DNA of 49,476 nt from Spirochaetota bacterium (GCA_026414805.1 JAOAIH010000017.1:1-49476); one strand, 5' to 3'. Numbered from the stretch's first letter, positions 25,642 through 32,137 are shown. Notes: generated by a model from the letters alone, not told the origin. Made by a program: numbers and translations.

Positions 25642-26235
25642 ATGACTAAAAAACAAGAGGGAAAAGCGGTTGTTGATACTCGTGGCTATAGTTGCCCAAT
25701 TTCTGTTGCTATGATAGCCAAAACAATGAATTCTGTAGCTGATGGATCATCGGTTGAAATTATTTCAGATGATGTATTAATGAAAAAGGAATTGGAACAA
25801 TGGTGTTTTGAAACTGGTAATATAATGAATTCTGTAATAATTAACAATGAAACTATTCGCATTGAAGTCATTAAGGGCAAAGGGTATAAACCTCAATCAT
25901 TATATGATTTTATTACTTTTTTTCTTTTAGGTGTGCAATTACATATACGTAAATTGTTTGTATCATTGTTTAAAAAAGATACTACAAGATGTTTGATAAC
26001 ATTTGTGTCTGTTGCTGAAGGGATGCGTGCACATTATTGGCTTCAGAGTACCCATCCTGATTGGGACTATGTTTTATTGCCTGTTCCAAATGATATAACA
26101 AGCCATTGTGGCGTAGTTATGGGATTGCCAACGCTAACACAGGCAAAAGAATTATTTGAGTTACTGCGCAATAATAATTTCAAAGTTGAAGATATATATA
26201 TTAAGCATAAATATACTTACCATTCTGTCCATTAA
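25642..26235 (+). CDS. TusA-like domain fused to a DUF3343 (putative Se/S carrier) domain
   Basis: 197 aa. The N-terminal domain (about residues 8-75) has the TusA/SirA signature D12-x-R14-G15-x-x-C18-P19, with CPIS in place of the usual CPxP. TusA proteins carry sulfur as a persulfide on that cysteine. The C-terminal domain (about 112-190) matches DUF3343: a strand plus SVAEGMRAHYWL, then LLPVPNDITSHCGVVMG with a second conserved cysteine in an SxCG context. Two sulfur or selenium carrier modules in one chain suggest relay of sulfur or selenium. No sulfur- or selenium-transfer enzyme is adjacent. The permease gene starts 5 nt downstream. Confidence 0.8.
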   Translation: MTKKQEGKAVVDTRGYSCPISVAMIAKTMNSVADGSSVEIISDDVLMKKELEQWCFETGNIMNSVIINNETIRIEVIKGKGYKPQSLYDFITFFLLGVQLHIRKLFVSLFKKDTTRCLITFVSVAEGMRAHYWLQSTHPDWDYVLLPVPNDITSHCGVVMGLPTLTQAKELFELLRNNNFKVEDIYIKHKYTYHSVH

Positions 26236-27703: not shown

Positions 27704-28834
27704 GTGCGTAAAGTTTTCTTTCTTATTGTTTTACTATCGCTATTACATTTAACATTACTGTATGCAAATACAGAACATAAAGACAGTGTGGGTGGTGAGC
27801 CATTACAGGATATAGTTGTAATCAGTCAAAATGACTGGCTTATAATACCACATCTTTACTATAAACCTGAAACACAATTTGCTTATGGAGTGGTGTTTTT
27901 GACATATTTTCAGGATATAATAATGAGTATTCCACCAATAAAATTACGGCCAACAACATTAGCGGTAACATTTACCCATACACAAAATGACCAGTTTATA
28001 TTTCAGGTTTTTCCTGAGTTCTATTTTTTAAGAGATAGATATCATATAAAAAATGAGTTCCAGTATATGAATTATCCTGATAAATTTTATGGGATAGGTC
28101 AGGAAACCACGGATGACAATAAAGAGTCGTATACCTCAAGGATATTTTCATTTAAGAATATTATTGAGCGCGCACTTATTCCCGGATTTTATATCGGATT
28201 ACTGTATCATATTGATGTCCGTAAAACAACTCAAGCTGAGGAAGGGGGGGTAATTGATACAAATCAGGTACCAGGATCAGATAAAGGTCGTGTATCTGGG
28301 CTTGGGATCACAGTTAATTTTGACAATAGGGATGATATATTGTTCACTCGTGATGGAAGCTATGCCAATCTCACAATTACTCAATATTCTAAATATATTA
28401 AAAGCGACTTTGATTACATTGATGTGACCTTTGACTATCGATTCTTTGAGCCTTTTTGGTTTTCACATGTTCTTGCTGTGCAATTCTTTTCAGGTTATAT
28501 TCATGGGCAAGCTCCATTTTATTTGCTGTCTCAAATGGGTGGGGCTAAACTGATGCGAGGACTATATGAAGGGAGGTTCAGGGATCGTAATGTCGTAGTT
28601 GTTCAAGCGGAATACCGTGTTCCCCTGTTCTGGAGGTTTAGTGGTTGCGGTTTTGGTGGTGCAGGTCAGGTTGCTCCAACATTACGGGATTTTAATAAAA
28701 AGCATATAGTGTATACATGGGGTGGTGGTTTACGGTTCAAAATTAAGAAGGAACAGAGTCTCAATATACGTCTTGATGTAGGATTTAGTAAAAACTTTTA
28801 CGGTGTATATGTGACAATTGGCGAAGCAATATAA
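27704..28834 (+). CDS. Omp85-superfamily outer-membrane protein (BamA C-terminal-like barrel)
   Basis: 376 aa from GTG at 27704, 7 nt after AGGAG. It has a signal peptide (about residues 1-20, cleavage near LYA-N). No POTRA repeats are seen; the chain is a 16-strand-type barrel of the bacterial surface antigen family, with the typical internal motif VNFDNRDDILFTRDGSY and the later LMRGLYEGRFRDRN, which carries the conserved (V/I)RGY-type RG motif of Omp85 barrels. Such short members may insert or move lipids or proteins; function is open. Confidence 0.8.
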   Translation: MRKVFFLIVLLSLLHLTLLYANTEHKDSVGGEPLQDIVVISQNDWLIIPHLYYKPETQFAYGVVFLTYFQDIIMSIPPIKLRPTTLAVTFTHTQNDQFIFQVFPEFYFLRDRYHIKNEFQYMNYPDKFYGIGQETTDDNKESYTSRIFSFKNIIERALIPGFYIGLLYHIDVRKTTQAEEGGVIDTNQVPGSDKGRVSGLGITVNFDNRDDILFTRDGSYANLTITQYSKYIKSDFDYIDVTFDYRFFEPFWFSHVLAVQFFSGYIHGQAPFYLLSQMGGAKLMRGLYEGRFRDRNVVVVQAEYRVPLFWRFSGCGFGGAGQVAPTLRDFNKKHIVYTWGGGLRFKIKKEQSLNIRLDVGFSKNFYGVYVTIGEAI

Positions 28835-28842
28835 ATAAATTA

Positions 28843-30036
28843 TTGAATAAGCAGATTGCTCAAGATAAAATGAATAGTATGAAACGTCCTGTAGAAGTAT
28901 CAACAGTTGAATTAGTTGAGATTCTGGATAGATACCTTCAAACTGAAGGAGATATTCACTATGCAATTAAGATAGTTGGATATCCTGGTGTGGGTAAATC
29001 TGCCATTGTTGAGCAAGTTGCCAAAAAGCATAATTATTTTTTCATTGATACACGTTTAGCTTTTAAAGAAAATGTAGATTTGGGTGGCTATCCAGTACCA
29101 GATTCAAATTTAAAAAGAATGATTTATTTCAGACCACGATTTATCCCACCTGAAACTGTACCAGAAGGCTATAATGGGATTTTGTGGTTTCTGGATGAAG
29201 CTAATAGGGCACACCCAACCGTTATACAGACGTTATTCCAGATTATAACTGAGCGTATGTGTGGGGAACATGCTTTGCCACGTAAAACAGCTATAGTACT
29301 TGCCGGAAATCTTGGTGATTTGGATAACACAGTAATCACTGATTTTGATGATTCAGCACTTGATGGCAGATTGGCGGTATTCCATCTTATTCCTGATGCT
29401 ACCAACTGGTTGCAATGGGCAATTGAAGAAGGTATTCATCCTGCAGTAATACAATACATATCCATATATCCTGATAGGCTATGGGATAGTTCAGCAGTCA
29501 ATCCAAATCCACGCGGATGGCACCAGGTATCTGATACACTTTACAAAGCATATAATTTGCATTCTGAGGAACAATTCAGGAGCTATCTGGCACATAATGA
29601 CTATAAGGTTTTACAAAAAATTATAGTATCGTTAATTGGTGAAGTTGCGGGAACTGATTTTATTTTGCAGTATGTATCACCACGAGCCATTACAAGCAAC
29701 GATATCCTTAATGGTGAAGAACAAAAATTGCAGGAACTCAAAGATGGAAAAATCCCTGTAGAGGATATCATGTGGGCCGTCAATGGTGCCATTCAAATAA
29801 TGTACAATGATCACTTAAACACAAATGGTAATCCTGATAGTCATCTTCTTAAAAAACTTGCCAATTTTCTTAAATTTGTATCTTGCACCCGTGCAGATGC
29901 TCGTGTGTCATTCATGTATGCGCTGGTAAGAGAGTGTGGGTTGTTGAGTCAAATTCCAGATGCTCTGAAATTTATTGATGATCCTCACGATAAACATGAT
30001 ATTTTGGAAAAAGTCCAGGTTTTTCTTGATGTATAA
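28843..30036 (+). CDS. MoxR-type AAA+ ATPase
   Basis: 397 aa from TTG at 28843, although ATG at 28870 is about as likely; neither has a good ribosome binding site. Walker A is GYPGVGKS (about residues 46-53), Walker B ILWFLDEANRA (113-123), and sensor 1 LAGNLGD (about 153-159). MoxR ATPases form hexamers and act as chaperones that load cofactors or remodel VWA-domain partners. The next gene encodes such a partner and follows by 5 nt. The C-terminal 140 residues after the AAA+ core are mostly helical. Confidence 0.9.
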   Translation: MNKQIAQDKMNSMKRPVEVSTVELVEILDRYLQTEGDIHYAIKIVGYPGVGKSAIVEQVAKKHNYFFIDTRLAFKENVDLGGYPVPDSNLKRMIYFRPRFIPPETVPEGYNGILWFLDEANRAHPTVIQTLFQIITERMCGEHALPRKTAIVLAGNLGDLDNTVITDFDDSALDGRLAVFHLIPDATNWLQWAIEEGIHPAVIQYISIYPDRLWDSSAVNPNPRGWHQVSDTLYKAYNLHSEEQFRSYLAHNDYKVLQKIIVSLIGEVAGTDFILQYVSPRAITSNDILNGEEQKLQELKDGKIPVEDIMWAVNGAIQIMYNDHLNTNGNPDSHLLKKLANFLKFVSCTRADARVSFMYALVRECGLLSQIPDALKFIDDPHDKHDILEKVQVFLDV

Positions 30037-30041
30037 CAGCG

Positions 30042-31430
30042 ATGGACAATGCATATATAAATACTATACTCCTTAAACTATGGAAACAAAGCAGATTCAC
30101 ATCATACTTTTATCATGCAGTTGAGTTTGTAACAACAAATTCAATACCTACCTTATCATTGGTAGCCTCACATAGAATGGTGTTATACTATAATCCTGTC
30201 TTTTTACATACAGTTACTGAAGATGAATTCCTGGGCCTTCTTGTGCATGAAATGTTGCATGTAATTCTTGAACATGACCATAGGGCAAAATCGGGAGATG
30301 TGGTTTTGCAAAATATAGCGCAGGATATGGTGGTGAATACATTTATCCACAATCATAAAAAAATATTTTTTTCCCGTAAGGGCCAATATCAATGGGATGT
30401 GCCTGTACTCACTCTTCCGCAGGGATTACCTGTCATTCCACTTGAATTTTATAATGCCACTGGCATACAGGATCCAGTATGGGAAGATGTATACAGATGG
30501 CTTATGAAAAAGCAGAGTGAAATAACAGTTATTAACTATCATGGCCAAATAGAAAAACAAAAGTCATTGTTTCATGATGATATGTATGCGATAGCTCATA
30601 ATAATAACGAGCAGTCTGAAAATGAATTCAATTACAAAAATTATCTTTCACATTCTTCCGTAGATGATGAAAAGTTAATAGTACAGGATGAAAATTCATA
30701 TTTACCAACAGGTGTTCATTACTTTACCCAGGACGAAGCAGCACGGCGTTCAATCAAAAATAAAATTATTTCCCATGCAAAAAAAGATGAATGGTGTACT
30801 GTAGAACGCTCATACATGGATATAGTTGCACTACTTGAAAAAATTAATCTATGCGATAGCTCATATTATGCCCAACACATTAAAAGTATTGTTGATTATA
30901 TGTCACATTCAAATGAGTGGTATTACACACATTCTCGTTTTAATAGAAGATATGTTGCAAACGGTATATATATAGCGGGAAGAGCATACAAGCAGAGTGA
31001 AATCATAACAGTAGCTATTGATATTTCAGCATCAATGATGGCTCAGAGAGAAGATCTTGAGATTGCATTTGGAATCATAGAGGACTTAACTGATAAATAT
31101 AAAATATATCTGGTGTGTGTAGATGAAGAATATTTTATCCCGGTCAAGGAGGGGGATGTTTTTATACGGTCAAATATGTCAGCAAAACCTTATGAATACA
31201 AAAGAGGCGATTGGAAGTTAATAAAATCAGGGTATGGAGGTGCAACATTTTTTTCTTCTTTTTTTAATGAATATTTAAGAGGGCATAAAGAAATGGTAAT
31301 TGTTATTACCGATGGATATATATATGATATAGATAAATTAAAGCCATACCCCAATACATTATGGCTCATAACAAAGAGCAGAAATGAATATTTTGTAGCT
31401 CCATTTGGTAAGGCAATAAGCATCCTATGA
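30042..31430 (+). CDS. DUF2201-like metallopeptidase domain fused to a VWA-like domain
   Basis: 462 aa. The N-terminal half has a zinc-protease motif, LLVHEMLHVILEH (H69, E70, H73 and a following H78), typical of DUF2201_N putative metallopeptidases. The C-terminal half is VWA-like with an intact MIDAS pattern: DISAS near residue 327, a Thr in GGATFFSSF, and the later VITDGY. A Lys/Asp-rich linker (about 180-260) joins them. It is bracketed by a MoxR ATPase (5 nt before) and a repeat protein (4-nt overlap). By analogy with MoxR-VWA pairs, the ATPase likely remodels a target that the VWA half recruits. Two GCGATAGCTCATA words occur in it (30588 and 30853). Confidence 0.88.
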   Translation: MDNAYINTILLKLWKQSRFTSYFYHAVEFVTTNSIPTLSLVASHRMVLYYNPVFLHTVTEDEFLGLLVHEMLHVILEHDHRAKSGDVVLQNIAQDMVVNTFIHNHKKIFFSRKGQYQWDVPVLTLPQGLPVIPLEFYNATGIQDPVWEDVYRWLMKKQSEITVINYHGQIEKQKSLFHDDMYAIAHNNNEQSENEFNYKNYLSHSSVDDEKLIVQDENSYLPTGVHYFTQDEAARRSIKNKIISHAKKDEWCTVERSYMDIVALLEKINLCDSSYYAQHIKSIVDYMSHSNEWYYTHSRFNRRYVANGIYIAGRAYKQSEIITVAIDISASMMAQREDLEIAFGIIEDLTDKYKIYLVCVDEEYFIPVKEGDVFIRSNMSAKPYEYKRGDWKLIKSGYGGATFFSSFFNEYLRGHKEMVIVITDGYIYDIDKLKPYPNTLWLITKSRNEYFVAPFGKAISIL

Positions 31431-32137
31431 ATACTAATAGTGTAAAAAAGGCACAGGAAATATACCGTGCGGGTTTAGAGAATAATGAACATTCAAAAGT
31501 TCTTTTAGAAGAACTTTTAACCTGCAATGTATCAGAATATATAATCAAAGCCGGTAAAGACTGGATAGAATTTGATGTTTCAAAGGCAATGGATTATTTT
31601 ATCAGCAAAAACGATATTGATGGACTATATCATGCCGGTATTTACTGGAAAAATTTTGATTATCAACGTGGTATCAATCAAATTTTGAGTTGGAATAATG
31701 ACGAATATATTTTTAGAGCAGGGAGGTTTTGGAAGCAGTTTGATTTTGAGCAAGGATTAAATAGGCTAATAGAATTGCGTTCCTCAAAGTATATCTATCA
31801 TGCAGGACTTGACTGGAAGAGTTTTGACCACAAAAAAGGATTTAATGCTTTGTTACATATAGCTGATCCTGAATACATCTTTTATTCAGGAATGCACTGG
31901 GTTTATTTTGATTATGAAAAAGCCTCCGACGTGCTTATAAAAACAGAAAGTTGTGAGTTTATATACAAAGCAGGAGCTCAGTGGAAATGGTTTGATTACG
32001 CAAATGGATGGAAAATCCTAGAACGTAATGTAATAAATGGAAGACAGTGGCGTAGCAAGGTATTGGAAAATAACAAGTGGAAAAAAGCGCTTAAATGGAT
32101 ATGGTATTCTATGAGTGAGGATATAAATAAAATTTAA
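31427..32137 (+). CDS. Protein of six gap-free 28-residue repeats, third gene of the MoxR cassette
   Basis: 236 aa, soluble, no export signal. Residues 36-203 split exactly into six 28-residue units with no insertions. The shared pattern is xEYI[FY]xAGxxWxxFDYxxGxxxLIxxxx, with AG (SG in unit 5), W and FD kept in every unit. Residues 1-35 hold a weaker lead-in unit (EIYRAG) and the C-terminal 33 are Trp/Lys-rich. The periodicity suggests a two-helix solenoid for protein binding. Its ATG overlaps the stop of the metallopeptidase-VWA gene by 4 nt, so it is translationally coupled to the cassette. The repeat does not match TPR (34), Sel1 (36), HEAT or ankyrin (33) in length or residues as I know them. 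Confidence 0.8.
   Translation: MNTNSVKKAQEIYRAGLENNEHSKVLLEELLTCNVSEYIIKAGKDWIEFDVSKAMDYFISKNDIDGLYHAGIYWKNFDYQRGINQILSWNNDEYIFRAGRFWKQFDFEQGLNRLIELRSSKYIYHAGLDWKSFDHKKGFNALLHIADPEYIFYSGMHWVYFDYEKASDVLIKTESCEFIYKAGAQWKWFDYANGWKILERNVINGRQWRSKVLENNKWKKALKWIWYSMSEDINKI
31532..32035 (+). repeat. Six tandem 84-bp (28-codon) protein-coding repeats
   Basis: The unit boundaries fall every 84 nt from 31532. At protein level AG/SG (positions 7-8), W11 and F14-D15 recur in all six units. DNA identity between units is low, so the array is ancient rather than newly expanded. Confidence 0.85.

Follow-up and report, generated by a model that had tools for sequence, protein, structure and literature searches.

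A MoxR ATPase, a metallopeptidase-VWA protein and a solenoid repeat protein form a conserved cassette with an acyl-CoA dehydrogenase family as its predicted client

The stretch of DNA analysed here (the window, 49,476 nucleotides; GCA_026414805.1 JAOAIH010000017.1:1-49476) comes from an uncultured member of the Spirochaetota, and records of the same genus are named as Spirochaetota and Spirochaetia metagenome-assembled genomes. It carries an operon of three genes on the plus strand. These encode a MoxR-type AAA+ ATPase (28879..30036), a protein joining an HExxH metallopeptidase domain (DUF2201_N) to a C-terminal VWA domain with an intact metal ion-dependent adhesion site (MIDAS; 30042..31430), and REP, an alpha-solenoid protein of six units with a 28-residue period (31427..32137). 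Assignment of this trio to the AAA+ remodelling machines of the MoxR-VWA kind is well supported. Comparative genomics, the sole basis on which a client can be proposed, points to an acyl-CoA dehydrogenase family of about 568 residues (ACAD568) as the most likely one. The complete proposal, a MoxR-VWA activase or chaperone with REP as dedicated solenoid adaptor and ACAD568 as client, is put forward here as having about an even chance of being correct.

The three reading frames lie where a preliminary description of this DNA had placed them, and the tight coupling that it reported was borne out by measurement: 5 nt separate the MoxR and VWA genes, and the VWA gene overlaps REP by 4 nt. Its central idea, a coherent three-gene cassette in which the repeat protein is a real third partner, is now strongly supported. 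REP was not found mainly apart from MoxR and VWA, the outcome named beforehand as contrary to this idea. Instead, all 49 REP-bearing sampled genomes encode a VWA protein of the same subfamily, nearly always adjoining and together with MoxR, and the order and strand of the trio are kept across two phyla. REP is present in 25 of the 45 genomes of the window's uncultured Spirochaetota order, and none was found in the other sampled Spirochaetota genomes outside that order. In Desulfobacterales it is present in 24 of 292 genomes, a 25th match (E 3e-4) having been left out of the count. The VWA subfamily occupies the same 25 Spirochaetota genomes, with just two weak, distant matches elsewhere, and the same 24 Desulfobacterales genomes plus one that retains a remnant. 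Single-sequence scans of genomes and viruses had found nothing; a REP alignment, scanned against 84,980 species, returned 23 loci, which belong to Spirochaetota and Desulfobacterota; one is from an isolate, Desulfatibacillum alkenivorans DSM 16219. The VWA gene is directly upstream of REP in all 20 of these loci that have upstream DNA, and where the contig extends far enough, MoxR comes before VWA. REP was detected in three of 395 genomes sampled across the phylum of Desulfatibacillum, all three known already, and the trio is therefore not widespread in that phylum.

Departures from the standard arrangement leave the set intact. MoxR lies on a separate contig in one genome (G170), and other genes are inserted inside the trio in four (G013, G021, G025 and G035). 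At the Spirochaetota loci L048, L057, L153 and L159, where order is kept, the genes standing between those of the trio include one for a 995-residue proline dehydrogenase-like protein. The VWA-gene remnant mentioned above (85 residues; L135 5154-5495, genome G281) belongs to a Desulfobacterales genome that has neither this MoxR nor REP and represents a decayed cassette. Pairwise distances of the three proteins are correlated, with rho of about 0.5 in the whole set and 0.76-0.82 in Spirochaetota by themselves. Their trees largely separate the two phyla, so that inheritance has been mostly vertical.

The MoxR reading frame is open from a TTG codon at 28843 to 30036. Because homologues begin at MKRPVEV, the true start is probably the ATG at 28879 and the TTG listed previously is probably wrong. 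The protein matches Pfam AAA_5 above cut-off (E=1.2e-5) and the PHROG_1297 ATPase (E=3e-57). Walker A (GYPGVGKS), Walker B (WFLDE), GNL and ALDGR motifs are essentially invariant in 15 homologues, and the P-loop, Walker, sensor and arginine motifs together identify it as an AAA+ protein of the MoxR/dynein-related clade.

In the VWA protein, the HExxH motif (HEMLH) and the MIDAS residues D327, S329, S331, T402 and D424 (DxSxS..T..D) are invariant in 16 homologues, in agreement with the initial recognition of a metallopeptidase joined to an intact VWA domain. DUF2201_N (PF13203) is detected in the window protein (E=8.5e-11) and in 16 of 16 homologues, and PHROG_1314 also matches (E=1.6e-34). The order of domains, an HExxH zincin followed by a VWA, is that of the DUF2201_N family. 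However, the Pfam DUF2201 VWA model scores the window protein at 13.5 bits against a cut-off of 26.4 and recognises just four of the 16 homologues at E 0.01, so that the trio proteins form a divergent subfamily of DUF2201_N metallopeptidase-VWA proteins. The structure model is of mixed confidence; Foldseek aligned it with VWA and I-domains, with NorQD and, weakly for its N-terminal part, with the fold of selecase, none of these below E 1e-3. With MoxR encoded beside a VWA protein whose MIDAS is intact, the trio has the composition of a MoxR-VWA pair, and such pairs are established remodellers or activators of protein partners, a point taken over unchanged from the preliminary description.

The MoxR-vWA ternary conflict systems are built on the same three-component logic, a strictly conserved third protein accompanying MoxR and vWA (PMC7159879), and a weak bpMoxR match was obtained (E=0.029, under the cut-off). 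The trio might thus serve in defence or conflict, as a system of the VMAP, iSTAND, FtsH or beta-propeller type. However, no effector domain follows the VWA in any of the 16 homologues, which end at or soon after that domain. The gene order is MoxR-VWA-third rather than VMAP-MoxR-vWA, and REP, an all-helical repeat protein, matches none of these four families. Moreover, PADLOC yielded just a weak ATPase match and nothing convincing, no defence genes occur among the neighbour families examined, and the trio is stable within the genus and for the most part vertically inherited. The early suggestion of action against foreign elements is therefore not supported, and a defence role is judged very improbable. 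The PHROG matches of MoxR and VWA raise another alternative, that the trio is phage-derived and serves virion assembly as proposed in jumbo phages. Against this, REP was not found in phage or IMG/VR records, scans of IMG/VR with the VWA and MoxR profiles gave no close relative, and no virion genes were recognised beside the trio; the likelihood of this origin is slight in the extreme.

REP is 236 residues long, with its six units at residues 36-203 (31532..32035). Every unit carries the motif AG..W..FD, in some cases as a close variant, at residues 42, 70, 98, 126, 154 and 182. Six exact repeats had been announced: the spacing is indeed exactly 28 residues, but the sequences are not exact, as the units are 18-43% identical to one another and about 50% at the DNA level. 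Such divergence identifies an old protein repeat and no recent DNA duplication. Nearly all of 40 homologues retain the period, mostly with 4-6 detectable units, which is far beyond chance. AlphaFold2, run with a 14-sequence alignment, predicts a compact all-helical structure, a single confident solenoid without low-confidence linkers (mean predicted local distance difference test score 94.7; predicted template modelling score 0.87). No Pfam or NCBIfam family is matched above cut-off, and PHROG and PADLOC gave nothing convincing. The protein does not fall into the known helical repeat families (TPR, Sel1, HEAT, Pumilio), to which 14 REP proteins gave weak matches at best, one of them to TPR_15 (E 0.031). 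A fold search of the PDB with the model returned nothing below E 1e-3 (best listed template modelling score 0.44), and among viral folds the top match was A0A6J5RY29 (E 4.5e-6), an uncharacterised protein from a phage. Weak matches to Csm6_6H, DUF7476 and NucT (E=0.0011) were set aside, being under cut-offs or aligned to a non-solenoid protein.

Against the repeated structural frame of REP, the residues R97, Y153, H157 and K181 are near-invariant and specific to individual repeats, which suggests a predicted binding surface for one fixed ligand. This pattern and the compact solenoid without linkers also argue against the view that REP is itself the substrate, cleaved or assembled by the VWA metallopeptidase before acting elsewhere. 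Its nearly constant position as third gene, the translational overlap in the window and the invariant HExxH motif could all be accommodated by that view, which is nevertheless held to be quite unlikely.

The preliminary description had considered the target of the cassette not evident, and here its account can be improved. It had also asked whether neighbouring genes vary or are conserved: flanks change between families and the other flanking genes are mostly unrelated, with the exception of ACAD568, the sole neighbour family that recurs in number at loci of both phyla. A general fatty-acid-degradation neighbourhood was rejected for the same reason, since the other neighbours are mostly unrelated. 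ACAD568, often present as two tandem paralogues, was seen at 14 loci of a first neighbourhood set, 8 in Spirochaetota and 6 in Desulfobacterales. Judged from coordinates, 22 of 49 genomes have it beside the trio or only a few genes away (12 of 25 Spirochaetota, 10 of 24 Desulfobacterales). Two tandem genes divergent from the trio, often separated from it by a TetR gene, are usual in Spirochaetota, and a single co-directional gene before MoxR in Desulfobacterales. The trio-adjacent members are spread over several well-supported subclades of the ACAD568 tree, which argues for repeated association rather than one inherited block.

Presence of the family also tracks that of the trio. ACAD568 occurs in 48 of the 49 trio genomes. 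Within the Spirochaetota order it is found in 24 of 25 genomes with the trio and in 4 of 20 without (Fisher p=1.1e-7), two of these four holding distant members only; a separate test in Desulfobacterales gave 24 of 24 against 98 of 268 (p=1.9e-10). Both p-values are nominal and ignore shared ancestry. No such tracking is seen with ordinary acyl-CoA dehydrogenases: trio-less Spirochaetota genomes with 9-25 of them exist, and the link is therefore specific to ACAD568. Membership of the acyl-CoA dehydrogenases is established by Pfam Acyl-CoA_dh_1 (PF00441; E 1.5e-12 and 3.5e-17). The catalytic base Glu373 (KLEGT) is invariant in 87 of 87 sequences, and the enzyme is presumably active.

Several observations weigh against ACAD568 as the client. 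Since the tests ignore shared ancestry, the true evidence is weaker than the p-values imply, and the disappearance of a single linked block may account for part of the co-loss of trio and ACAD568. Desulfobacterales genomes whose trio has no adjacent ACAD568 appear to span about five or six lineages only, and the window's own genus has its ACAD568 genes on contigs other than that of the trio. Moreover, the relation is one-way: the trio is nearly always accompanied by ACAD568, but ACAD568 often occurs without the trio, as in 98 Desulfobacterales genomes and in G018 and G038, and is therefore not always dependent on it. Finally, one genome (G025, 69% complete) has the trio but no ACAD568.

These points leave room for a general quality-control machine, chaperone and metallopeptidase combined, with many clients. 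The ACAD568 link would then be a matter of common regulation or lifestyle, as in a fatty-acid regulon under TetR control. At five loci in Spirochaetota and one in Desulfobacterales, the gene immediately preceding MoxR does encode a TetR protein, 27 of the 49 trio genomes have no adjacent ACAD568, and phage relatives are regarded as chaperones of assembly (PMC7824862). However, the unrelated, family-specific nature of the other flanking genes, the indifference of ordinary acyl-CoA dehydrogenases to the trio, the recurrence of ACAD568 adjacency with different subclades and orientations, and a distribution narrower than would be expected of a general chaperone all speak against it. It is regarded as possible but doubtful.

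In the preferred reading, a dedicated machine acting on ACAD568, MoxR would form a hexameric ATPase ring on which the VWA protein docks, its MIDAS metal gripping an acidic site on the client. REP would be the third subunit, a rigid helical solenoid whose otherwise structural repeat carries ligand-like invariant residues, and would select or hold that client. ATP turnover would then deform the client, leading to its activation, maturation or repair; alternatively, the metallopeptidase domain may trim or degrade damaged molecules. Known MoxR-VWA pairs join an ATPase ring to a client-binding VWA adaptor, a finger of which enters the MoxR pore in the NorQD model, and they repair or regulate enzymes; by analogy, the trio would act on ACAD568. 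For example, the VWA domain of ViaA binds the flavoprotein FrdA (PMC10585395), NorD acts on its client only with its MIDAS and NorQD binds the client through the MIDAS metal (PMC9976466), and CbbQO releases inhibited rubisco (PMC4660213). The outcome may be activation, maturation, ligand clearance or HExxH-dependent degradation. In a more specific version, the trio would be an acyl-CoA dehydrogenase activase that pries dead-end ligands from ACAD568, as CbbQO clears rubisco, with REP reading the client. Such a ligand could be coenzyme A (CoA) persulfide in sulfide-rich habitats. This compound is a tight-binding inhibitor of short-chain acyl-CoA dehydrogenase, and the way in which the inhibition is reversed has been called unclear (PMC12661444). 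The activase version is thought unlikely, and clearance of CoA persulfide by the trio is speculation.

Within the window's genus the flanks of the trio are constant, with an Omp85-like gene before it and arylesterase-like and melibiase-like genes after. The Omp85-superfamily outer-membrane protein gene directly upstream of MoxR (27704..28834, plus strand; PF01103 E=7.6e-12) is probably not part of the system, because neighbourhood comparison shows this position to be kept only inside the genus. Further upstream (25642-26235), a TusA sulfurtransferase domain is fused to a Se/S carrier-like domain, and this gene is kept across the genus.

MoxR-VWA machines are widespread and few have a known client. 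The present comparison names a candidate, a flavoenzyme family of fatty-acid oxidation, in two phyla; D. alkenivorans DSM 16219 is a cultured member of one of them. We know of no ATP-driven activase step in beta-oxidation; if the proposal is correct, acyl-CoA dehydrogenases would join the enzymes that use such an activase, and a new solenoid repeat family would be defined as a third subunit. A search of the open-access literature found no paper linking MoxR, a VWA domain and an acyl-CoA dehydrogenase, none on MoxR with DUF2201 and none on COG3864. What appears to be new is the REP family, the near-obligate linkage between it and this MoxR-VWA subfamily, and the prediction of ACAD568 as client; the combination of MoxR with a metallopeptidase-VWA protein in jumbo phages and the servicing of enzymes by MoxR-VWA pairs are already known.

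Among known systems, the CbbQ-CbbO rubisco activase combines a MoxR ring with a VWA adaptor to remodel one metabolic enzyme, as is proposed for the trio. To our knowledge, CbbO has no metallopeptidase domain and CbbQ-CbbO no solenoid third gene. Its client is rubisco (PMC4660213). NorQ-NorD and RavA-ViaA are MoxR-VWA pairs acting on a redox enzyme, and the model of the trio VWA protein matches NorQD among many VWA folds; their N-terminal domains, however, differ from that of the trio protein. We know of neither an HExxH domain nor a REP-like third gene in these two pairs.

The chaperone pair described in group 2.2 jumbo phages (PMC7824862) has the same two-gene architecture, a MoxR AAA+ protein and a vWA protein with an N-terminal metallopeptidase, and PHROG_1297 and PHROG_1314 cover most of the lengths of the window's MoxR and VWA proteins. 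However, the phage loci examined (S-TIM5, Av-05) have no REP, and the client proposed in jumbo phages is a virion protein. In cyanophage S-TIM5 the pair comes after an Hsp20 gene. PHROG_1314 and the corresponding genes of S-TIM5 (L086 5965-7113) and Av-05 (L085 4191-5627) carry the label "HNH endonuclease", yet it is the metallopeptidase-VWA profile that they match, and the label looks like a misannotation. The ternary conflict systems resemble the trio in the strict linkage of a third protein to MoxR and vWA and differ from it in the nature of that protein (VMAP, iSTAND, FtsH or beta-propeller), in the diversifying effectors attached to vWA, in order and in distribution (PMC7159879).

Bacterial pairs of MoxR and DUF2201_N/DUF2201 proteins (PF13203 and PF09967) have the same domain pair and occur as distant paralogues in some trio genomes. 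They fit the Pfam models far better (1.1e-45 against 8.5e-11) and have a different conserved neighbour of about 160-180 residues in place of REP. In the Desulfobacterales pairs at L203 3470-6482, L204 3770-6555, L206 3559-6528 and L211 4399-7468, this gene encodes a motif like KKRGNYRP and has no Pfam match; it is perhaps another third partner. REP itself has its helical repeat architecture in common with the TPR, Sel1, Pumilio and LRV solenoids, from which it is distinguished by a 28-residue unit carrying AG..W..FD.

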